A stretch of DNA of 64,000 nucleotides from Phlegmacium glaucopus (taxonomy: Eukaryota > Basidiomycota > Agaricomycetes > Agaricales > Cortinariaceae). Below the pieces are notes generated by a model. That model was given only the letters and a program-made list of their open reading frames with translations. It had not been told where the DNA came from and did not search any database. How positions within the stretch are numbered: the stretch's first letter is position 1; each line of letters starts with the position of its first letter. The stretch is taken from assembly GCA_015039465.1 (NCBI GenBank), contig MU130299.1, positions 577,942 to 641,941 on the forward strand, in the 5' to 3' direction. Positions 24,160 to 64,000 of the stretch are shown in pieces. Position numbers and translations under genes: made by a program.

Positions 24160-24901
24160 NNNNNNNNNNNNNNNNNNNNNNNNNNNNNNNNNNNNNNNNN
24201 NNNNNNNNNNNNNNNNNNNNNNNNNNNNNNNNNNNNNNNNNNNNNNNNNNNNNNNNNNNNNNNNNNNNNNNNNNNNNNNNNNNNNNNNNNNNNNNNNNNN
24301 NNNNNNNNNNNNNNNNNNNNNNNNNNNNNNNNNNNNNNNNNNNNNNNNNNNNNNNNNNNNNNNNNNNNNNNNNNNNNNNNNNNNNNNNNNNNNNNNNNNN
24401 NNNNNNNNNNNNNNNNNNNNNNNNNNNNNNNNNNNNNNNNNNNNNNNNNNNNNNNNNNNNNNNNNNNNNNNNNNNNNNNNNNNNNNNNNNNNNNNNNNNN
24501 NNNNNNNNNNNNNNNNNNNNNNNNNNNNNNNNNNNNNNNNNNNNNNNNNNNNNNNNNNNNNNNNNNNNNNNNNNNNNNNNNNNNNNNNNNNNNNNNNNNN
24601 NNNNNNNNNNNNNNNNNNNNNNNNNNNNNNNNNNNNNNNNNNNNNNNNNNNNNNNNNNNNNNNNNNNNNNNNNNNNNNNNNNNNNNNNNNNNNNNNNNNN
24701 NNNNNNNNNNNNNNNNNNNNNNNNNNNNNNNNNNNNNNNNNNNNNNNNNNNNNNNNNNNNNNNNNNNNNNNNNNNNNNNNNNNNNNNNNNNNNNNNNNNN
24801 NNNNNNNNNNNNNNNNNNNNNNNNNNNNNNNNNNNNNNNNNNNNNNNNNNNNNNNNNNNNNNNNNNNNNNNNNNNNNNNNNNNNNNNNNNNNNNNNNNNN
24901 N
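24160..24901. other. Assembly gap (742 N)
   Basis: The run of N falls inside the WD40-repeat array of the STAND gene. The true length is unknown, since near-identical 126-bp repeats commonly collapse in assembly. Confidence 0.95.
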
Positions 24902-26140
24902 CTGCCTCACACTCTCCTGTGTCTGCATTCCAGATCCGTGCAGTATGATCCCAAGATGCAGAGAGAATATACATACCACTAGGAGAAAAGACAGCAGAGA
25001 TGACTATATTTGTATGTCCTTTGAGCTCTGCCTCACACTCTCCTGTGGCTGCATTCCAGACACATGCCATGTGAGCATCAGATGTAGAGACAATATGCAT
25101 ACCATCAGGAGAAAAGACAGCAAATTTGACCCAATTTGAATGTCCTTTGAGCTCTGCCTCACACTCTCCTGTGGCTGCATTCCAGATCCGTGCAGTGCAA
25201 TCATTAGATGCAGAGACAATATGCATACTATCAGAAGAAAAGTTGACAGACCTGACCAAATCTGAATGTCCTTTGAGCTCTGCCTCACACTCTCCTGTGG
25301 CTGCATTCCAGGTCCGTGCGGTGCAATCATTAGATGCGGAGACAATATGCATACCATCTGGAGAAAAGACAGCAGAGTTGACCCAATTTGAATGTCCTTT
25401 GAGCTCTGCCTCACACTCTCCTGTGGCTGCATTCCAGATACATGCAGTGCAATCACCAGATGCAGACACAATATGCATACCATCAGGAGAGAAGACAGCA
25501 GAGTTGACCCAATATGAATGCCCTTTAAGCTCCGCCTCACACTCTCCTGTGGCTGTATTCCAGATCCGTGCAGTGTAATCACCAGATGCAGACACAATAT
25601 GCATACCATCAGGAGAGAAGACAGCAGAGTTGACACCATTTGAATGTCCTTTGAGCTCTGCCTCACACTCTCCTGTGGCTGCATTCCAGATCTGTGCAGT
25701 GCAATCATTAGATGCAGAGACAATATGCATACCATCAGGAGAGAAGACAGCAGAGTTGACCCAATCTGAATGTCCTTTGAACTCTGCCTCACACTCTCCT
25801 GTGGCTGCATTCCAGATCTGTGCAGTGCAATCATTAGATGCAGAGACAATATGCATACCATCAGGAGAGAAGACAGCAGAGTTGACCCAATCTGAATGTC
25901 CTTTGAACTCTGCCTCACACTCTCCTGTGGCTGTATTCCAGATCCATGCAGTGTGATCATAAGATGCAGAGACAATATGCATACCATCAGGAGAGAAGAC
26001 AGCAGATGTGACTGGGGATGAATGTCCTCTGAGCTGTGCCTCACACTCTCCTGTAGTTGTATTCCAGATCCATGCAGTGTGATCATCAGATGTAGAGACA
26101 ATATGCATACCATCACAAGAGAAAACAGCGGAGTTGACAC
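24902..26140 (-). repeat. Ten tandem 126-bp WD40 coding repeats
   Basis: Each unit encodes the pattern (W/G)VNSAVFSPDGMHIVSAS, then xDxTAxIWN, then ATGECEAELKGHS. Two neighbouring units around 25741-25992 are almost identical in DNA. Differences cluster at a few codons (N/G/Y before D, C/Y/H after D, Q/R/W/C before IWN), while the framework is constant. Confidence 0.9.
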
Positions 26141-29100
26141 CTGTAGAATGTCTCAGAACTGCTTCAGACCAACTCCATGCCTTTCTCCTTCCCAGACAGA
26201 GCTTCCATGGACAGTCCATCTTATCTCCATATGCTCTCCAGATATCAGATTTTTCAGGCAGCCAAGCTAGGGCTGAAGGACATCCTTCAAGACTGGTATT
26301 TTTAATGAAACCAAAACTTTCTTTCAAAAACTGTTTTGCATCAATCATGGTTGTTGCCAAGGTCTTTTTGGTCTATTTTCTATTATTAGTGTAATCCATC
26401 TGCAGCAACAAGATCACTTACATTTGCCCAATTTTCTAGTTTTTGCAATGAATGCATTGCAGTCTCCAATTTGCCTAAAATACTCAAACAATCCATCCAT
26501 CGCAGAAGATGTCTTTGAAAGAAATTCTTCAACTCAACACATTCATTGTTTTTGTTTCCATGGGTAAAATGAATGGCCCAGCTACCACAAGCATATGCAA
26601 GAGCTTCAGAAATTTCTTCACATCTCCTCTCTCCCAAATAAAATACTCTTTCTTTCCCTGACCATTCTTTCTCCATCAAGGACAGACACTGAAGTGCTAG
26701 ATGGTTATGTGAAACACAAGGGTCAAGATAATGTTTTGAGGAAAGAGTGTGATTACTGATGAAATCATAAAAGGAAGCATGGAGTACTGAGATCTGCTTA
26801 GCAGAATGTTGATATGATGGAATATGTATCAATGAATTAAGGGAAGCAAGGGCTGCATCCACCTGTTCCATGGGTATTTCCATCAAAGAACTGATGGCAG
26901 TCATAGAAAGAGGGTTATATACATATACAACAGCTGTCAGAACCATGTCTATACTCCAAACCTCCCCACCAGTTGCAGATTTATAAGCAGCTTCCAAAAT
27001 TCTTTCATAAAGGACATGTAGTGGTTGGGTTACACCAGATGTAGTTTCCGATGCACAATTGACCACATCTGAAAGACGCCTAGGCATGCTAGGGCTACCT
27101 CTCTGAGAAATATACTTGCAGACAGTTGCTGCATAAATGAACAAAGTACCAGACATCTTAACAAGGCTTTCAACTTCAGCCTGGGGTGGCCAATTATGCC
27201 TATTGTACTTATTTTTCCCACCAACCAAACAAGCTTTAATGTAGAGCTCAATATCAGCTTGCACAATCTCCTTTTCAACCTCATGAAGGATGAAATTGGA
27301 ATGATTCAAAGAACCATCAAAAGTCTCCATCACCACCATTTCTGGGCGACTAGTAATGAAGAACTTTACTGGAAGAGATTTACTGTGCTTCAATATCACA
27401 GAAAGCAACTCAGCCACAAGGGACTGGTCAGAGCACTCATCCAGAGCATCAAGAACAATAACTGGGACAATTACTCCTTCTCTACTGTCCCTGTATGCAG
27501 CAGTGAGTGGTCTAACAATGAAATTCAGGAATTGTTTGGCAATCCTCCAAGATTTGCAGTCAGGATTGGCTTCTACTGCATCTAGGATCAGTTGGGACAG
27601 ACAGGGAAGATACCCACTGGCAGCCAACTGAAGGCAAATAGTGGGGATGATGCAACGGACATCACTGGTATCAACCTGGAGATGAGAAGAGAAGAAAGTA
27701 CCACCAAGGGATTCCCTTTCATCAAGGATTTGACTGAATGAGTAAGCAATTGTAGTTTTACCAGTTCCAGCCATCTGTTAATTTTAAAACAAGGAAGTCA
27801 CGTCGGAGTTACTCCGGAACGGACGGAACGGAACTGGAACAGTAAGCGGAAAGGACGTTGGCCTCAGCGTGTGTGCTGTGCCGCCCAGCTCCTAAGATGT
27901 CCTGATTTCGGAACGGAAGAAGAAGTAATAAGACGGAAGACCTCAGTGACTTTAGAGGACGAACAAGAGGAGGAAACAAAGTTGATATTCGAACTAAGGG
28001 AAAACATACAAGTTTGAGTACTTTAAATATAAAAGGAATTGCAACCGAAATATAGAATATAAATATAAGTGCTGCGTTCTGCTCCCGGAAAAGGTCCTGC
28101 ATTCTTGGGTGAATAATCCATGGCTGGTGTGCTGACTGATGATGGGAAAGATGATGACAAAGAATAGTGGTAGTGGCGAAGAAGTGATAACGGGTTTGGA
28201 GTATGGACGGAGGAACCGGAATGACACGGAGACGTCTTGGAGTTGAACATAGGGAGAGTAGTTCGGGATATAAGGGAAGGCACTGTACGGAGTACGGACT
28301 ACCGGAAACAGCTCCGACGGAGCCGGACCGGAGTAACGTATAACGGAATGTAACACCATCCCATTGAGCCAGTATACCTTTGTAGCCGTATTATCACCTG
28401 CCCACACTTGCAGTGCATCAAGGATTGCCTTGCGAGTGTTCTCCAAACATGCATTTCGTGGAGCAGGAGATGCTGCGTCGTATTCTGCAAACTCAGCGCG
28501 AGGTAAGAGATTATCACATAGTGCAGCCTATAAAGTAGATTTTAGCGATGATTATCCCAGTATGAAGACTAAACACACTCACTATGATTCGAGACCTAGA
28601 TTGTTTATTTCCATCAGGATTGGATGGTGCGTGGAAGTTGTTGATCTAACACGATGATAGAATTGTCATTACACAGATTGGTTTTTATGCAAATGGAATG
28701 ATGCTTACAGTATTGGCCATGTTGATTGTCGAGTGATGCAGAGTCACATCGTGAGCACCTTGGAAGACAGTCATTGGAGTTATGCCCTATATGAGCATTT
28801 ATTAGTGACGACGGTCGTGAGCGCAAACATGGATGCTGACCGTGGGTGGGCTTTCTGGTGCTGAGTTTCTAACGGAACTGGGTTGCCTGTGCACAACAGC
28901 CATCGACGCCGAAACAGGTAGGTAAATGGGAGGGGACACTGCTTCCGCACTTGCAACCACTGTGGCAGGGGCGTGGTCGACGCCGACCGCAGAGACCATA
29001 TTGAGTGGTAAATTACTTGAAAGTATGAGGAGGTTTAGTAATAATCGATAAATTGCGGACGACACGATACAGGTTACTCACCTCGTTCCTGCTGCGTCTG

Positions 29101-29251
29101 TCATTGCCATATGATCATCAGAGCTTGAATCCACCTCGATCAACGATGGTTTGGACGGGGGCAACCGATTACCAAGAGGAGTTAACTTCTGCTTGGAAGA
29201 TCGGTCAGCATCGTCTATGGGATCCCTCTCAAATGGCCTCTTGCTCAACAT
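24902..29251 (-). CDS. NACHT-WD40 STAND receptor (NLR-like), C-terminus in the gap
   Basis: The ATG at 29251 starts a disordered N-terminus (MLSKRPFERDPIDDADRS). GT..AG introns link it to GITPMTVFQGAHDVTLHH, INNFHAPSNPDG, AALCDNLLPRAEF and LENTRKAILDALQVWAG. The NACHT domain follows: Walker A NGM-MAGTGKTT, Walker B VIVLDALDECS, and sensor ITSRPE (27774-26386). After a short linker exon, ten 42-residue WD40 repeats are visible before the gap. NWD-type STAND proteins in fungi (HET-D/E class) act in allorecognition or non-self sensing; the WD repeats bind ligand and the NACHT oligomerises. The effector domain is not recognised. A 580 bp solo LTR sits at the Walker A codons and must be spliced out for function. 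Confidence 0.85.
27776..28355 (-). mobile_element. Solo LTR (580 bp) acting as a candidate intron in the STAND gene
   Basis: The element starts TGTTAC and ends TTAACA on the minus strand (TGTTA/TAACA ends) and is flanked on both sides by the 5-bp target duplication GATGG (plus strand CCATC at 27771-27775 and 28356-28360). The body is rich in accgg/ccgtt-type motifs and has a TATA-like tatatttaaag near its 3' part, in the same orientation as the gene. Excising one duplication copy plus the LTR restores the codons for LNGMAGTGKTT. No internal retrotransposon genes are present, so it is a solo LTR. Confidence 0.85.
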
Positions 29252-59279: not shown

Positions 59280-60555
59280 TTACACATTCAACTCTGCGAT
59301 ATCAATACTGTTACTTCGTTGAACGCCAATATCACCATCATCTCTGCTCTCCTGGTGGACAATATTCAGGATACTTCCCGTTTTCAGAATTGAATTCGAA
59401 TCATCAGGTGCAATTTCAAAGGGCAAATTCTCGGTAATTTCTACCATGGATTTCTCATCGTGGAAAGCCGATCCCATTGCAACCAGCACAACGATGATTG
59501 TAGGTGTTATGCCCTAGCCGGGCCCATGTTATCAGTAAAAGATAAGAATTAGCAATGACCACTCTCACGTTAAACATTTGGTCGATACCAATGATCAAGA
59601 CATCAGCGTCAGACTTAGTTGGCACAATGGTAAGCACGAGCCGAAGCAATTGGACAGCAAACATTGCTGCGCCAGATTCGATTAGTACGAGTATGGTATA
59701 GCGAAAGTTGCACCCCCCAGCAGTGCAAGAATTTTGGTCGGACAGTGTGGGCTTTACTTCCCGAAACTCCCGGACGATCCTGAACACGATTAAGCCCGTC
59801 ACGATAGCATTCACGGCCAATGACATAACGAGGCTTGTCCAGGCGACCCTATACCCCAAGGCAGTAGCGTCAAGATCGCCCGATGAAGCGTACGAGTCAA
59901 TAAGCACTATCCAACTACCTACAGGCAATAATTTGAAATCAGTGGATGGCTGAAGATATGTTGACTAACCGAGGTACGTGAATGATAGAATTGAAGGAAT
60001 TATCACGATGCGGGTATCGCGATCCCACACATGCCAGCAACGGAAGATCTTGAAGATTTGGATAAATAAAACGAATGACAGGCATGGTTTAGTATGCGTA
60101 CCAGGATACATTGAGTGATAAGGTCACAACAACCACTCAATGACGTTTGAGTAACCAAAAGAATATTGAGTAATGAGGCTGCTTGTTGTGTGTCGCTGAG
60201 CGTCTGCACAACTTGATAGTATTAGTGTTAAAAAGCTATTGTTACTGATGGTCATTACGTACTTGATACAGGACAATTGTTGTATCACCAACAACGGTAG
60301 CAACAGATAGAGCATATAGAACACAAAGAGGATAGAAAAGGATATTGTGCGACTTGTTTGCGCCGCCATTTCTCGACGCCTGGAGTTGTAGATACAAGAC
60401 AAATATACCAGAATAGAGTCCTGCACCGAGGTAAAAATGGACTGCTTTAGCAGAGGATGTGAATGTTGTAGAACAGATATCTTACCGCAGAAGAAGCTTT
60501 CGATGCATACACTAATGGTGAGGGAATCAGCACTGAGGTCAGTAAGTTCAAACAT
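59280..60555 (-). CDS. Seven-TM-type integral membrane protein, tandem copy A
   Basis: The ATG at 60555 (MFELTDLSADSLTISVCIES) and small introns join FFCGLYSGIFVLYLQLQ, HNILFYPLCVLYALSVATVV, LNILLVTQTSLSGCCDLITQ, IFRCWHVWDRDTRIVIIP, SWIVLIDSYASSGDLDATAL, SLVMSLAVNAIVTGLIVFRI and LVLIESGAAMFAVQLLRLVL, followed by an acidic C-tail ending GVQRSNSIDIAELNV. The pattern of about seven hydrophobic segments with a W-D-R motif is shared by a large family of uncharacterised agaricomycete membrane proteins. No ligand or partner can be inferred. The second copy is 2.5 kb away. Confidence 0.75.
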
Positions 60556-61974
60556 GGTTTGGCGTGTGTTTGAGTAGCCCAGATCATTGAAGTTGAGGTC
60601 TGAGCTCTCTTTATATGAGTCTAGCACCAATCTCAGCCTGAGATCAGCCGTGATGCATTGATGTTTCGCGATGATCAGATCATACAAATGTCAATGTTAT
60701 CGTAAAGTTGGTATCAAGGAAGGTTGTTGACGCCCAATTGAGACTTGGTTCTAAATTATGTAAGGGTCAAAGTTCCGCACAACCGCCAGCAGCTGATGCT
60801 TCCAGTAGATGGCAGTGTACTATTGGTTTGAAGTAAAATGTTTTTTGTTTTATTTTATTCGACTTCGTGATCAGTCATTTTTCTTTGTTTTCTTCATTCT
60901 GTATTAATTCGATGAGTGCTTGAACTCTCAACCTACTCGTCCGGGATGAAATATTGATCCAGGAAGAAGAGATTGCCTTGTATGATGGAATGATTCTGGC
61001 AGACCCAAAATAGTACCCTATCAGCAGTGTACGCTCAGCCTCATTTAGTCTTGTACCAAGATCGCCATCATCACATAGGAGGGCAGTGCTACCATTAGAT
61101 ATCAAAATGTAAAATTAGCACGAAACGAGACCATATTTTCCGTCCCATTTCTTTTCACTCCCGCAAGCTCTAAAAATGTGGAAAATTGATTTTTAGATAG
61201 ATAACATGTTATAGATGATAATCTGTCTAATACGTAGCACTCAAAAGTCACTTTATTTGACAGTATAAATTAATTACTGAAAACTTGACACTGCCCTGAT
61301 GAAACCGGTACCGCCCTCGTGTGAGAAGGGATTAGGTTGAGCCTACAGCCTCATTTTCACTTTCACCATGTGTAAGATGAACATCATGATGCATCATTGA
61401 CATATTTGCACGCAATTTATATCAAGTAGTGCCAGACGTTGCGCCGGCTTCGTCTGCGGATATTTGAAAGCTGACCATGGCAGCCCGGGGGTCCCATGAA
61501 TGGTAAGATTGTCAAAAGTCCATGCTAATCCGCAATGCGGTGTATATTTTCACCCCGGTTGATACACGCGGGCCAAGTTAAGAGTGGGAATTGGTTGAGG
61601 ACGGGATTTGGCTTGCTTTAATTTTCCTCAACAATTATGCTGAGATGTGCGACGGGACCGTTAGTGTTTGAGTAACACTTTGTTCGATTCATCAGAGACT
61701 GTGTGGTGGACGATCAATTTATGTCTCGCAGATATGGTAAGTACAGGCTTATAATAATAGTAGACTCGCCTCCAGTCTCTATGGGATCAAGAGATGATTG
61801 AGTAATCAGACTGACAAATGATTCCAATTATTACTTTGTTGCATGCCAATATCATCGTTTCTGCTCTCCGGTGGACAATATTCAGGCCGATACTCCCCGT
61901 TTCCAGAATCGAATTCGAATCATAAATTAAATAATATTTTAACAAAAACTATTAATCATTTATACTTTTAGTCA
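60556..61974. repeat. Intergenic part of the tandem duplication
   Basis: Sequence between the two membrane protein genes. Its main part is repeated after copy B (63117-64000), including the actcgtccgggatgaaat block. A minus-strand frame at 60875-61105 (RVQALIELIQNEENKEK) is conserved only in part in the second unit, where it is broken by a stop, so it is not called as a gene. Confidence 0.55.
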
Positions 61975-63116
61975 CTACTTGGAGACAATTTCAATGGGCA
62001 AAATCTCCATAGTTTCTACCGTGGATTTCTCATCATGGAAAGACGACCCCATTGAAACCAGCACCACGATAATTGTAGGTGTTATGCCCTAGCCAGGCCC
62101 ATGTTATCAGTAGGGAAATAAGAATTAGCAACGACCATTCTCACATTAAACATTTGGTTGATACCAACGATCAAGAGATAGTCAGACTTCGTTGGCACAA
62201 TGGTAAACACCAGCCGAAGCAATTGGACAGCAAACATTGCTGCGCCAGATTCAATTAATACGAAAATGGTATGCGGAAGGTTGGACCCCCTAGTGGTGCC
62301 CCAATTTTGGTCGTACAGTATGGGCTTTACTTCCCGATACACCAGGAGGATCTTGAACACGATTAAGCTCGTCACGATAGCATTCACAGCCAATGACATA
62401 GCGAGACTTGTCAAACCGAGCCTGTTCCCCCAGCCAGTAGTGTTAAGTTGGCTCGATGAAGCGTACGAGTAAATAAGCGCTATCCAAGTACCTACAAGCA
62501 ATGGTTTGAAATTAGCTGATGACTGAAGATATGTTGACTAACCGAGATATGTGAATGATAGGATTGAAGGAATTATCACGATGCGAGTATTGCGACCCCA
62601 CACATGCCAGCAACGGAAGATCTTTGAAGGTCTGGATAAATAAAACGAATGACAGGCATGGTTTAGTATGCGTACCAGGATACATTGAGTGATAAGGTCG
62701 CAACAACCACTCAATGACGTTTGACTAACCAGAAGAGCATGGAGAAGTGAGTCCACTTGTGTGTTCCTGAGCATCTGTACAACTGATCAGTGATAGCATC
62801 AAAAGGTTATTGTTACAGATGGTCATTACGTACTTGATACAGGGCAATTGCTGTATCACCAACAACGGTAGCAACAGATAGAGCATATAGAACACAAAGA
62901 GGATAGAAAAGGATATTGTGCGACTTGTTGGCGCTGATATTTCTCGACACCTGGAGTTGTACATACAAGACAAATATACCAGAGTAGAGTCCTGCACCGG
63001 GGTAAGTTTAGCAGAGCCGTCAATGTTGTATAACAGATATCTATACCGCAGAAGAAGCCTTCGAGACATGTACCAATGATGAAGGAATTTGCACTTAGGC
63101 TAGAGAGTACAAACAT
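61975..63116 (-). CDS. Seven-TM-type integral membrane protein, tandem copy B, C-terminus truncated
   Basis: The ATG at 63116 gives MFVLSSLSANSFIIGTCLEG. Blocks in order are FFCGLYSGIFVLYVQLQ, CVLYALSVATVVGDTAIALY, SQTSLSGCCDLITQCIL, IFRCWHVWGRNTRIVIIP, TWIALIYSYASSSQLNTTGW, AMSLAVNAIVTSLIVFKIL and IESGAAMFAVQLLRLVFTIV, matching copy A closely. It ends EIVSK at the TAG at 61975-61977, because about 54 bp of AT-rich DNA is inserted relative to copy A; the tail homologous to copy A lies unused beyond it. It may be functional with a shortened tail. Confidence 0.7.
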
Positions 63117-64000
63117 GTCGACGGGTGTTTTAGGTAGCTCAGATCATTGAAGTCAGAGGTCTGAGCTGTCTTTATATGGGTCTAGCAGTGCCTGAGATCA
63201 GCCGTGATGTTCGCGATGCTGTCGTAGAGTTGGTGGTTGAACACTACCAACGCTTCAGTTTAGCCCTCAGCTCAGCTCGGCTATGGATCTGCGAGTAACA
63301 AGATATCAATTGAAGAGGTACGCGTTTCATTGCAAGATTCGTTGACGCCCATTTGAGATTCAGACTTGGTTCTAAATTATGTAAGGTCTTTTTAAGTTCC
63401 CATCATGCTTCGAGTAGATCATGATGGCAGTGTACTACTAGTTTAAAATAAGTATATTTTTTATTATTTTATTTTATTGGACTTCATGATCAGTCATTTT
63501 TCTTTGTTTTCTAGATCGATGAGCGCTTGAGTTCTCAACCTACTCGTCCGGGATGAAATATTGATACATGTGTCAGAAGGAATCAGGCTAGAGATTGTAT
63601 GATTCTAGCAGACCTCAAATAGTACCCTATCAGCAGTGTGCACTCAGCCTCATTTTCACCTTCACCATGTGTAAGATGAACATGCATCATTGATGTATTT
63701 GCACACCATTTATATCAAGTAGTGCCGGACGTTGCGTCGCCGGGCTTTGTCCGCGGATATGTGAAAACCGAGGGCGGCGGCGGGGCAAGTTCTCAAGAAG
63801 AAACCAAGAAGAAACTCCCTTGATTGTCAAAAGTCCATGCTAACCCACAACGTGGTGTAGATTTTTAACCTGGTTGAAACATGCAGGGCAAGTTAGAAGT
63901 GGGAATTGATTGAGGACGAGGTTTCAAGTTGGCATGCCTTGATTTTCTTCAACAATTATGCCAAGCCCTGCGACGGGACCGTTAGTATTTGAGCAAGATT
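63117..64000. repeat. Second unit of the tandem duplication, to the window end
   Basis: Matches 60556-61700 in order with small indels and continues past the window edge, so the end of the duplicated unit cannot be seen. Confidence 0.55.

Follow-up and report, generated by a model that had tools for sequence, protein, structure and literature searches.

The window analysed here, a stretch of 64,000 nucleotides from the mushroom Phlegmacium (Cortinarius) glaucopus (Cortinariaceae; contig MU130299.1 of assembly GCA_015039465.1), carries on its minus strand a gene for a NACHT-WD40 receptor of the STAND type that is interrupted by a solo long terminal repeat (LTR). The probable first coding exon (MLSKRPFERD..., 29082-29251) was placed by eye before a GTGAGT donor, and an ordinary intron recognized in the same way (GTGAGT...TATAG, 28528-28582) precedes the exon AALCDN...VYWLNGM, which was delimited by translation and lies upstream of the LTR at 28357-28527. 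Beyond the LTR, the frame restarts on the minus strand at ATGGCTGGAACTGG and translates into the NACHT exon M-AGTGKTT...ENWAN (26422-27774). An ordinary 49-nt intron, also seen by eye (GTAAGT...AAATAG, 26373-26421), separates this exon from a WD40-repeat exon (24902-26372) whose translation stays open up to a stretch of N. In the protein, the NACHT exon matches NPHP3_N (a P-loop domain of NACHT type) and the following exon matches WD40, so that the STAND (NACHT-WD40) identity put forward by a sequence-only reading of the same DNA is upheld. The run of N is 742 bp long (24160-24901), falls inside the WD40-repeat exon and adjoins repeats recurring every ~126 bp at 80-89% identity; it is likely to be an assembly gap in the repeat or a withheld stretch. 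Elsewhere in the window, a diverged direct duplication occupies 59311-63996, where 59411-60655 and 61986-63209 share 86% identity and further pieces 74-85%.

The insertion lies inside the Walker A codons, as the earlier reading had proposed: without the insert, the flanks VYWLNGM and AGTGKTT join into the uninterrupted frame LNGMAGTGKTT. Candidate paralogues of the NACHT exon were found at 314 places in the genome and 85 rows were scored. Besides the window itself, all 84 scored rows run uninterrupted through Walker A (query residues 1-3 to 505-507), and 78 are free of stops. Since six annotated P. glaucopus paralogues, which carry VYWLNGMAGTGKTT, are uninterrupted as well, the empty-site form of the Walker A region can be considered well established from sequence comparison. 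The receptor family of this mushroom is very large and mostly open, with 10 proteins among the database matches listed.

On the plus strand, the insertion consists of CCATC (27771-27775), TGTTAA...GTAACA (27776-28355, 580 bp) and CCATC (28356-28360). On the gene strand, this order becomes GATGG|TGTTACATT...TTAACA|GATGG, with the left target duplication at 28356-28360 and the right one at 27771-27775. TG..CA termini, a 5-bp duplication and the absence of an internal region identify the element as a solo LTR. In the genome (60.5 Mb in 259 contigs, the window belonging to contig C105), at least 40 scored copies of 1137 candidates are 93-100% identical to it. The TG..CA ends are common to other copies of the family, and an exact 5-bp duplication is present in 17 of the 32 rows compared, window included. 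With up to three mismatches, the 5' end pattern of the family occurs 474+535 times in the genome, against 17+22 times for a reversed control. The orientation of the LTR was set by ACAGGGAGGTAC, found before the 3' LTRs of other family copies, and pieces adjoining family LTRs match gag and the Ty3 capsid (Retrotrans_gag, Ty3_capsid; locus L016) or SH3_Tf2-1 (locus L003). The window LTR is a member of an abundant Ty3/Gypsy family and lies in the gene's own orientation. Both the TG..CA solo LTR and the GATGG target duplication on either side of it, as described from the letters alone, are confirmed by direct reading and by the other copies, which possess 5-bp duplications too. A chance direct repeat or a misassembly was considered and rejected, because the LTR family, its ends and the duplications found elsewhere provide independent support. 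The insertion is young: in a tree of 78 LTR sequences, its terminal branch measures 0.8%, or 0.5% without CpG-prone columns, and a strict count gives two private changes in 580 bases.

Putative splice sites at the edges of the LTR

The last G of the left GATGG (28356) and the first T of the LTR (28355) form a putative GT donor; the last A of the LTR (27776) and the first G of the right GATGG (27775) form a putative AG acceptor. The candidate intron delimited in this way from the frame (GTGTTAC...TTAACAG, 27775-28356, minus strand) would be 582 nt long. Its removal from GATG|GTGTTAC...AACAG|ATGG, with the GT..AG ends of a U2 intron and the frame kept, would take away 582 of the 585 added bases and leave three, i.e. 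one methionine (LNGM-M-AGTGKTT). Once this sequence and the 49-nt intron at 26373-26421 are removed, 998 codons are open up to the N stretch. In general terms, a TG..CA LTR flanked by a GnnnG duplication acquires GTG...CAG edges, and the residue left by splicing equals the duplication length minus two. By deduction, this rule is frame-neutral for 5-bp duplications, fails for those of 4 or 6 bp and is valid for either orientation of the LTR as long as the gene strand carries the duplication as GnnnG. The sequence-only reading had advanced the GT..AG pair at the insertion edges, the frame neutrality with one extra Met and the general GnnnG rule. The first is read directly in the sequence, the second follows from 585 - 582 = 3 bases and the arithmetic of the third is sound for 5-bp duplications.

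The LTR might accordingly leave the RNA as a spliceosomal intron of 582 nt with GTG...CAG edges, giving a full-length NACHT-WD40 protein with one additional Met. The exact frame neutrality and the 998 open codons argue for such an intron; the weakness of its donor argues against it, and we consider it unlikely on the whole. The U2 donor consensus is of the GTRAGT type. The edge donor G|GTGTTA lacks the G at position +5 that is present, as judged by eye, in four ordinary introns of the window gene. In a crude scan by simple consensus count, which is not a species-trained model, the edge donor falls in a tie that begins at rank 17 among 56 GTs, and the edge acceptor takes rank 14 (tied) among 33 AGs. 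The same scan detected no branch match of the CT(A/G)AY type 8-45 nt upstream of the acceptor and several sites inside the LTR that score better than the proposed pair, e.g. GTATGT and TTTTCCCTTAG. The GTG...CAG edges probably constitute a latent, weak hybrid splice pair, at most inefficiently used.

Splicing could also follow other routes, through a cryptic exonic donor located 22 nt before the LTR (AAAG|GTATAC) or through internal LTR sites that would leave part of the LTR in the transcript. Several GT and AG sites do outscore the proposed pair in the crude scan, and mixed outcomes are described for exonic ONSEN insertions in the available part of the corresponding report (PMC12112155). However, the score behind these sites is a simple consensus count and use of the exonic donor would delete the conserved YWLNG residues, which makes such routes improbable in our judgment.

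If the edge pair were used, the uninterrupted LNGMAGTGKTT of the P-loop would be replaced by LNGMMAGTGKTT. The predicted spliced product, GMMAGTGKT, has a Met at position 1 and departs from the GxxxxGK[ST] spacing of Walker A. Among 236 scanned homologues, 210 carry Gly at this position, four carry E, E, F or D and 22 are without a usable motif; an extra P-loop residue occurs in none of them. Because the first Gly of the P-loop gives way to the added Met, the spliced product would probably bind nucleotide poorly. The Met is added at a position where Gly is conserved, so that splicing at the edges would preserve the frame but probably not the function.

If the RNA is left unspliced, its reading frame continues into the LTR for about 120 codons, until the stop at 27994-27996. 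Alternatively, the LTR could act as a promoter or a terminator: transcripts would end in the LTR, or would start there and be translated from the ATG of the right GATGG. The sense orientation of the LTR is consistent with either role, the ATG is in frame and would yield a protein M-AGTGKTT without the N-terminal part, and the Crr1a transcript starts downstream of its own solo LTR according to the accessible text (PMC3559844). Conversely, the matches listed in the protein searches include neither an annotated NACHT protein starting at this ATG nor the read-through product, and we give this reading little credence. Nor do these listed matches include an annotated protein equal to the spliced window gene or to the gene of a second insertion, L083, described below, which counts against the 582-nt intron as well. 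Such a missing protein says little, since the 10 distinct P. glaucopus proteins among the matches listed are far fewer than the genomic candidates.

Further copies of the family and a second NACHT insertion

The genome contains 469 exact-match 5' ends of the LTR; GGTAC in front of 54 of them marks these as 3' LTRs. After removal of these 54, GNNNG is found before 32 of 415 ends (7.7%) and CNNNC before 49 of 415. A GnnnG duplication at one insertion is a ~1-in-13 event and unremarkable, so the fit of the window LTR to the rule could arise by chance at that rate, another point against reading it as an intron. Among 23 distinct copies with exact duplications (L001-L060), four are GnnnG, window included, and four CnnnC. 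In these 23 duplications, G or C occupies the first base 15 times and the fifth base 15 times; a possible integration preference behind this bias at the duplication ends would raise the supply of both GnnnG and CnnnC.

The 32 GNNNG-preceded copies were read, 30 as loci and two as flanks, and three of them lie in NACHT genes: the window, L083 and, in antisense, a copy on contig C62. An unselected sample was taken from the first 100 exact 5' ends, of which nine GGTAC-marked 3' LTRs were left out and 91 read (30 as loci, 54 as 150-bp 5' flanks and 7 through loci of other searches). In this sample, the C62 element is the only NACHT insertion, both its LTRs being in the sample list. Altogether, NACHT/WD40 matches occur in six of 90 loci: two represent the window place (L001, L071), three the C62 element (L007, L014, L067), and the sixth is L083. 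A further 56 flanks, of which the unselected sample supplied 54, contain none. Sense GnnnG solo LTRs in host NACHT exons number two among the copies read (90 loci and 56 flanks, a minority of the family). Since L083 originates from GNNNG-selected copies and most other copies are unread, the data do not show an enrichment of GnnnG among exonic insertions. Solo copies also cross long open frames unrelated to receptors, encoding a DDE_3 transposase (L012, ATGGA) and an integrase (L005, GGTGG, opposite strand), and two more cross long open frames without Pfam match (L002, L019). None of these four is GnnnG on the strand of the crossed frame; the family thus also enters coding DNA without any splice-site logic.

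The C62 insertion (G000:C62:555907-563257; L014, L007, L067) is a two-LTR element lying antisense in a third NACHT gene, with CAAAC as the duplication on the gene strand. Both halves of this gene read open, one stop being counted in each, at the slice start and in an ordinary-intron region. As the C62 element cannot use the rule yet interrupts a gene with open halves, open flanks are no proof of splicing; in the window they prove little in any case because the LTR is young. The argument that open flanks prove splicing was rejected on these two grounds. For the same reasons, and in view of the weak donor and the lengthened P-loop, the sequence-only claim that the LTR had been captured as an intron is not supported.

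Along the window gene (24902-29250), the CpG observed/expected ratio reaches 0.82 before the LTR and 1.21 within it, and falls to ~0.1 (0.09) in the NACHT and WD40 exons that follow. The ratio drops from rich to poor at the same gene part in the C62 paralogue and is low almost throughout in L083, a pattern suggestive of methylation of the gene body in its repeated NACHT-WD40 part. The CpG contrast across the LTR was rejected as a special feature of the insertion, since the C62 paralogue falls likewise in the same part of the gene.

L083 (G000:C169:61940-64969) is a sense solo LTR in the NACHT exon of another paralogue, which has a Pfam NACHT match and apparently, by eye, an ordinary intron at the same place as that of the window gene at 26373-26421. 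The LTR spans positions 1506-2083 of the locus (C169 63445-64022) and its duplication, GGCTG, fits the GnnnG rule. Putative removal would produce VEA-ADIELYI with one added Ala, and a 502-codon frame is open across the empty site. L083 could therefore be a second instance of the intron proposed for the window, with weak signs of greater age; against this, it came from a search restricted to GNNNG copies and the base preceding its putative donor is T, not G. All 50 homologues matching the pattern at the L083 site have the same length, so that neither there nor at the P-loop does any of the homologues scanned contain an extra residue, which also weighs against both introns.

The LTR of L083 is 85.6% identical to that of the window, its nearest copy in the genome reaching 93%. 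In the tree of 78 LTR sequences, its terminal branch measures 6.0%, or 2.5% without CpG-prone columns. The direct non-CpG difference from its nearest sampled relative, L078, is 10/431, and strictly private changes number three in L083 and two in the window LTR. The L083 insertion is perhaps older than the window insertion, with an age gap made uncertain by this 10/431 difference and by the counts of three and two private changes. In simulations assuming an indel share of 8%, a neutral 1512-nt exon escapes both stops and frameshifts in 29%, 14% and 4% of cases at 1.0, 1.5 and 2.5% change; counting stops alone, the shares are 64%, 48% and 31%. This speaks weakly for the L083 exon having been kept open once the LTR was in place. 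On a broader proposal, the TG...CA termini of LTR retrotransposons and retroviruses would be half-built splice sites completed by GnnnG, and at least two introns would have been born here in this manner, in the window gene and in L083, the latter perhaps of sufficient age for selection to have kept its exon open. We regard this proposal as doubtful and weighted it lower because the support for the age of L083 weakened on checking.

Preferred reading and known systems

On balance, the locus is best read, with some reservation, as an ordinary disruptive insertion of a young LTR with latent hybrid splice sites, the allele being most likely interrupted. A Ty3/Gypsy element would have inserted recently and in sense into the Walker A codons of one among several hundred candidate genes, duplicating GATGG. 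Its two LTRs would then have recombined into the solo LTR, the anatomy of which is observed and the order of events the standard inference. Unspliced RNA would read ~120 codons into the LTR to the stop at 27994-27996, and the edge pair GTG...CAG, each site of which is half LTR and half target duplication, would be at most inefficiently used. With so many paralogues, losing one gene would cost little, so that a young insertion could persist without splicing. The frame-neutral GT..AG places with 998 codons otherwise open, and the second GnnnG sense solo LTR in a still-open NACHT exon (L083), speak against disruption; so may, by analogy, the splicing out of exonic LTR elements as described for ONSEN in Arabidopsis in the available part of that report (PMC12112155). 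The available part of the Crr1a study, in which a solo LTR in a plant NB-LRR exon leads to a truncated product, offers an analogy that would favour disruption (PMC3559844). In-frame splicing of the window LTR is possible and has one parallel in the same gene family (L083); the window gene is most likely a disrupted or inefficiently spliced young allele. Should the LTR stay unspliced, the case would be that of an ordinary insertion striking a single gene of a very large receptor family. It is the candidate LTR intron that would be new, the LTR insertion itself being ordinary.

The origin of introns is a long-standing question, and transposon-derived intron families are mostly explained by DNA-based elements, going by the accessible portions of the introner study (PMC9860276). 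In these portions, the target duplication is described as the source of introner splice sites, in part or in whole, and some families as adding codons to the mRNA (Gozashti et al. 2022; PMC9860276), a precedent that argues for the 582-nt intron. The window LTR would resemble them in both respects, splice sites derived from a target duplication and added codons. Introner families, however, are seen as introns in many genes and are mostly thought to have spread by DNA-based mechanisms, whereas the present case concerns a solo LTR with two rule-fitting exonic copies among those read; the term 'LTR' is absent from the main text of that paper (PMC9860276). The AGGT model, as covered by the available part of a review by Yenerall and Zhou (PMC3443670), also lets a duplicated target supply the splice sites with the frame kept. 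It requires AGGT to be duplicated and leaves every codon unchanged, whereas in the window the LTR termini provide half of each site and one codon would be added; the words 'LTR' and 'retrotransposon' are absent from the text of this review (PMC3443670). A small grass LTR element is found mostly in introns when it lies within genes, according to the accessible part of its description (PMC3281118). No statement of the TG..CA plus GnnnG rule was found in the literature searched, which consisted partly of incomplete texts and took in few subscription papers.

The rule would predict frameshift-free splicing of exonic LTRs from the target duplication alone, with a sharp contrast between elements making 5-bp duplications and those making 4- or 6-bp ones. 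The putative removal of an exonic retrotransposon from RNA would have earlier parallels. The element 412, in an exon of the Drosophila vermilion gene, is reportedly spliced from the precursor RNA, as Fridell et al. are said to have described in 1990. Like the window LTR, it is an exonic retrotransposon; going by the title of that report, it is not a solo LTR. In Arabidopsis, the Ty1/copia element ONSEN inserted in an exon is removed as an intron, with cDNA evidence in the available part of the report (PMC12112155). ONSEN and the window share an LTR element in an exon that is removed by splicing, putatively so in the window. ONSEN differs in being a full-length copia element, for which the available part describes no splice sites shared with the target duplication (PMC12112155). 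As for Crr1a of Brassica rapa, a solo LTR resides in exon 1 of an NB-LRR gene, so that there too, as in the window gene, a coding exon of a STAND receptor gene harbours such an LTR. The two differ in that, according to the accessible text, the susceptible Crr1a allele yields a truncated protein and has a transcript that begins downstream of the LTR (PMC3559844).
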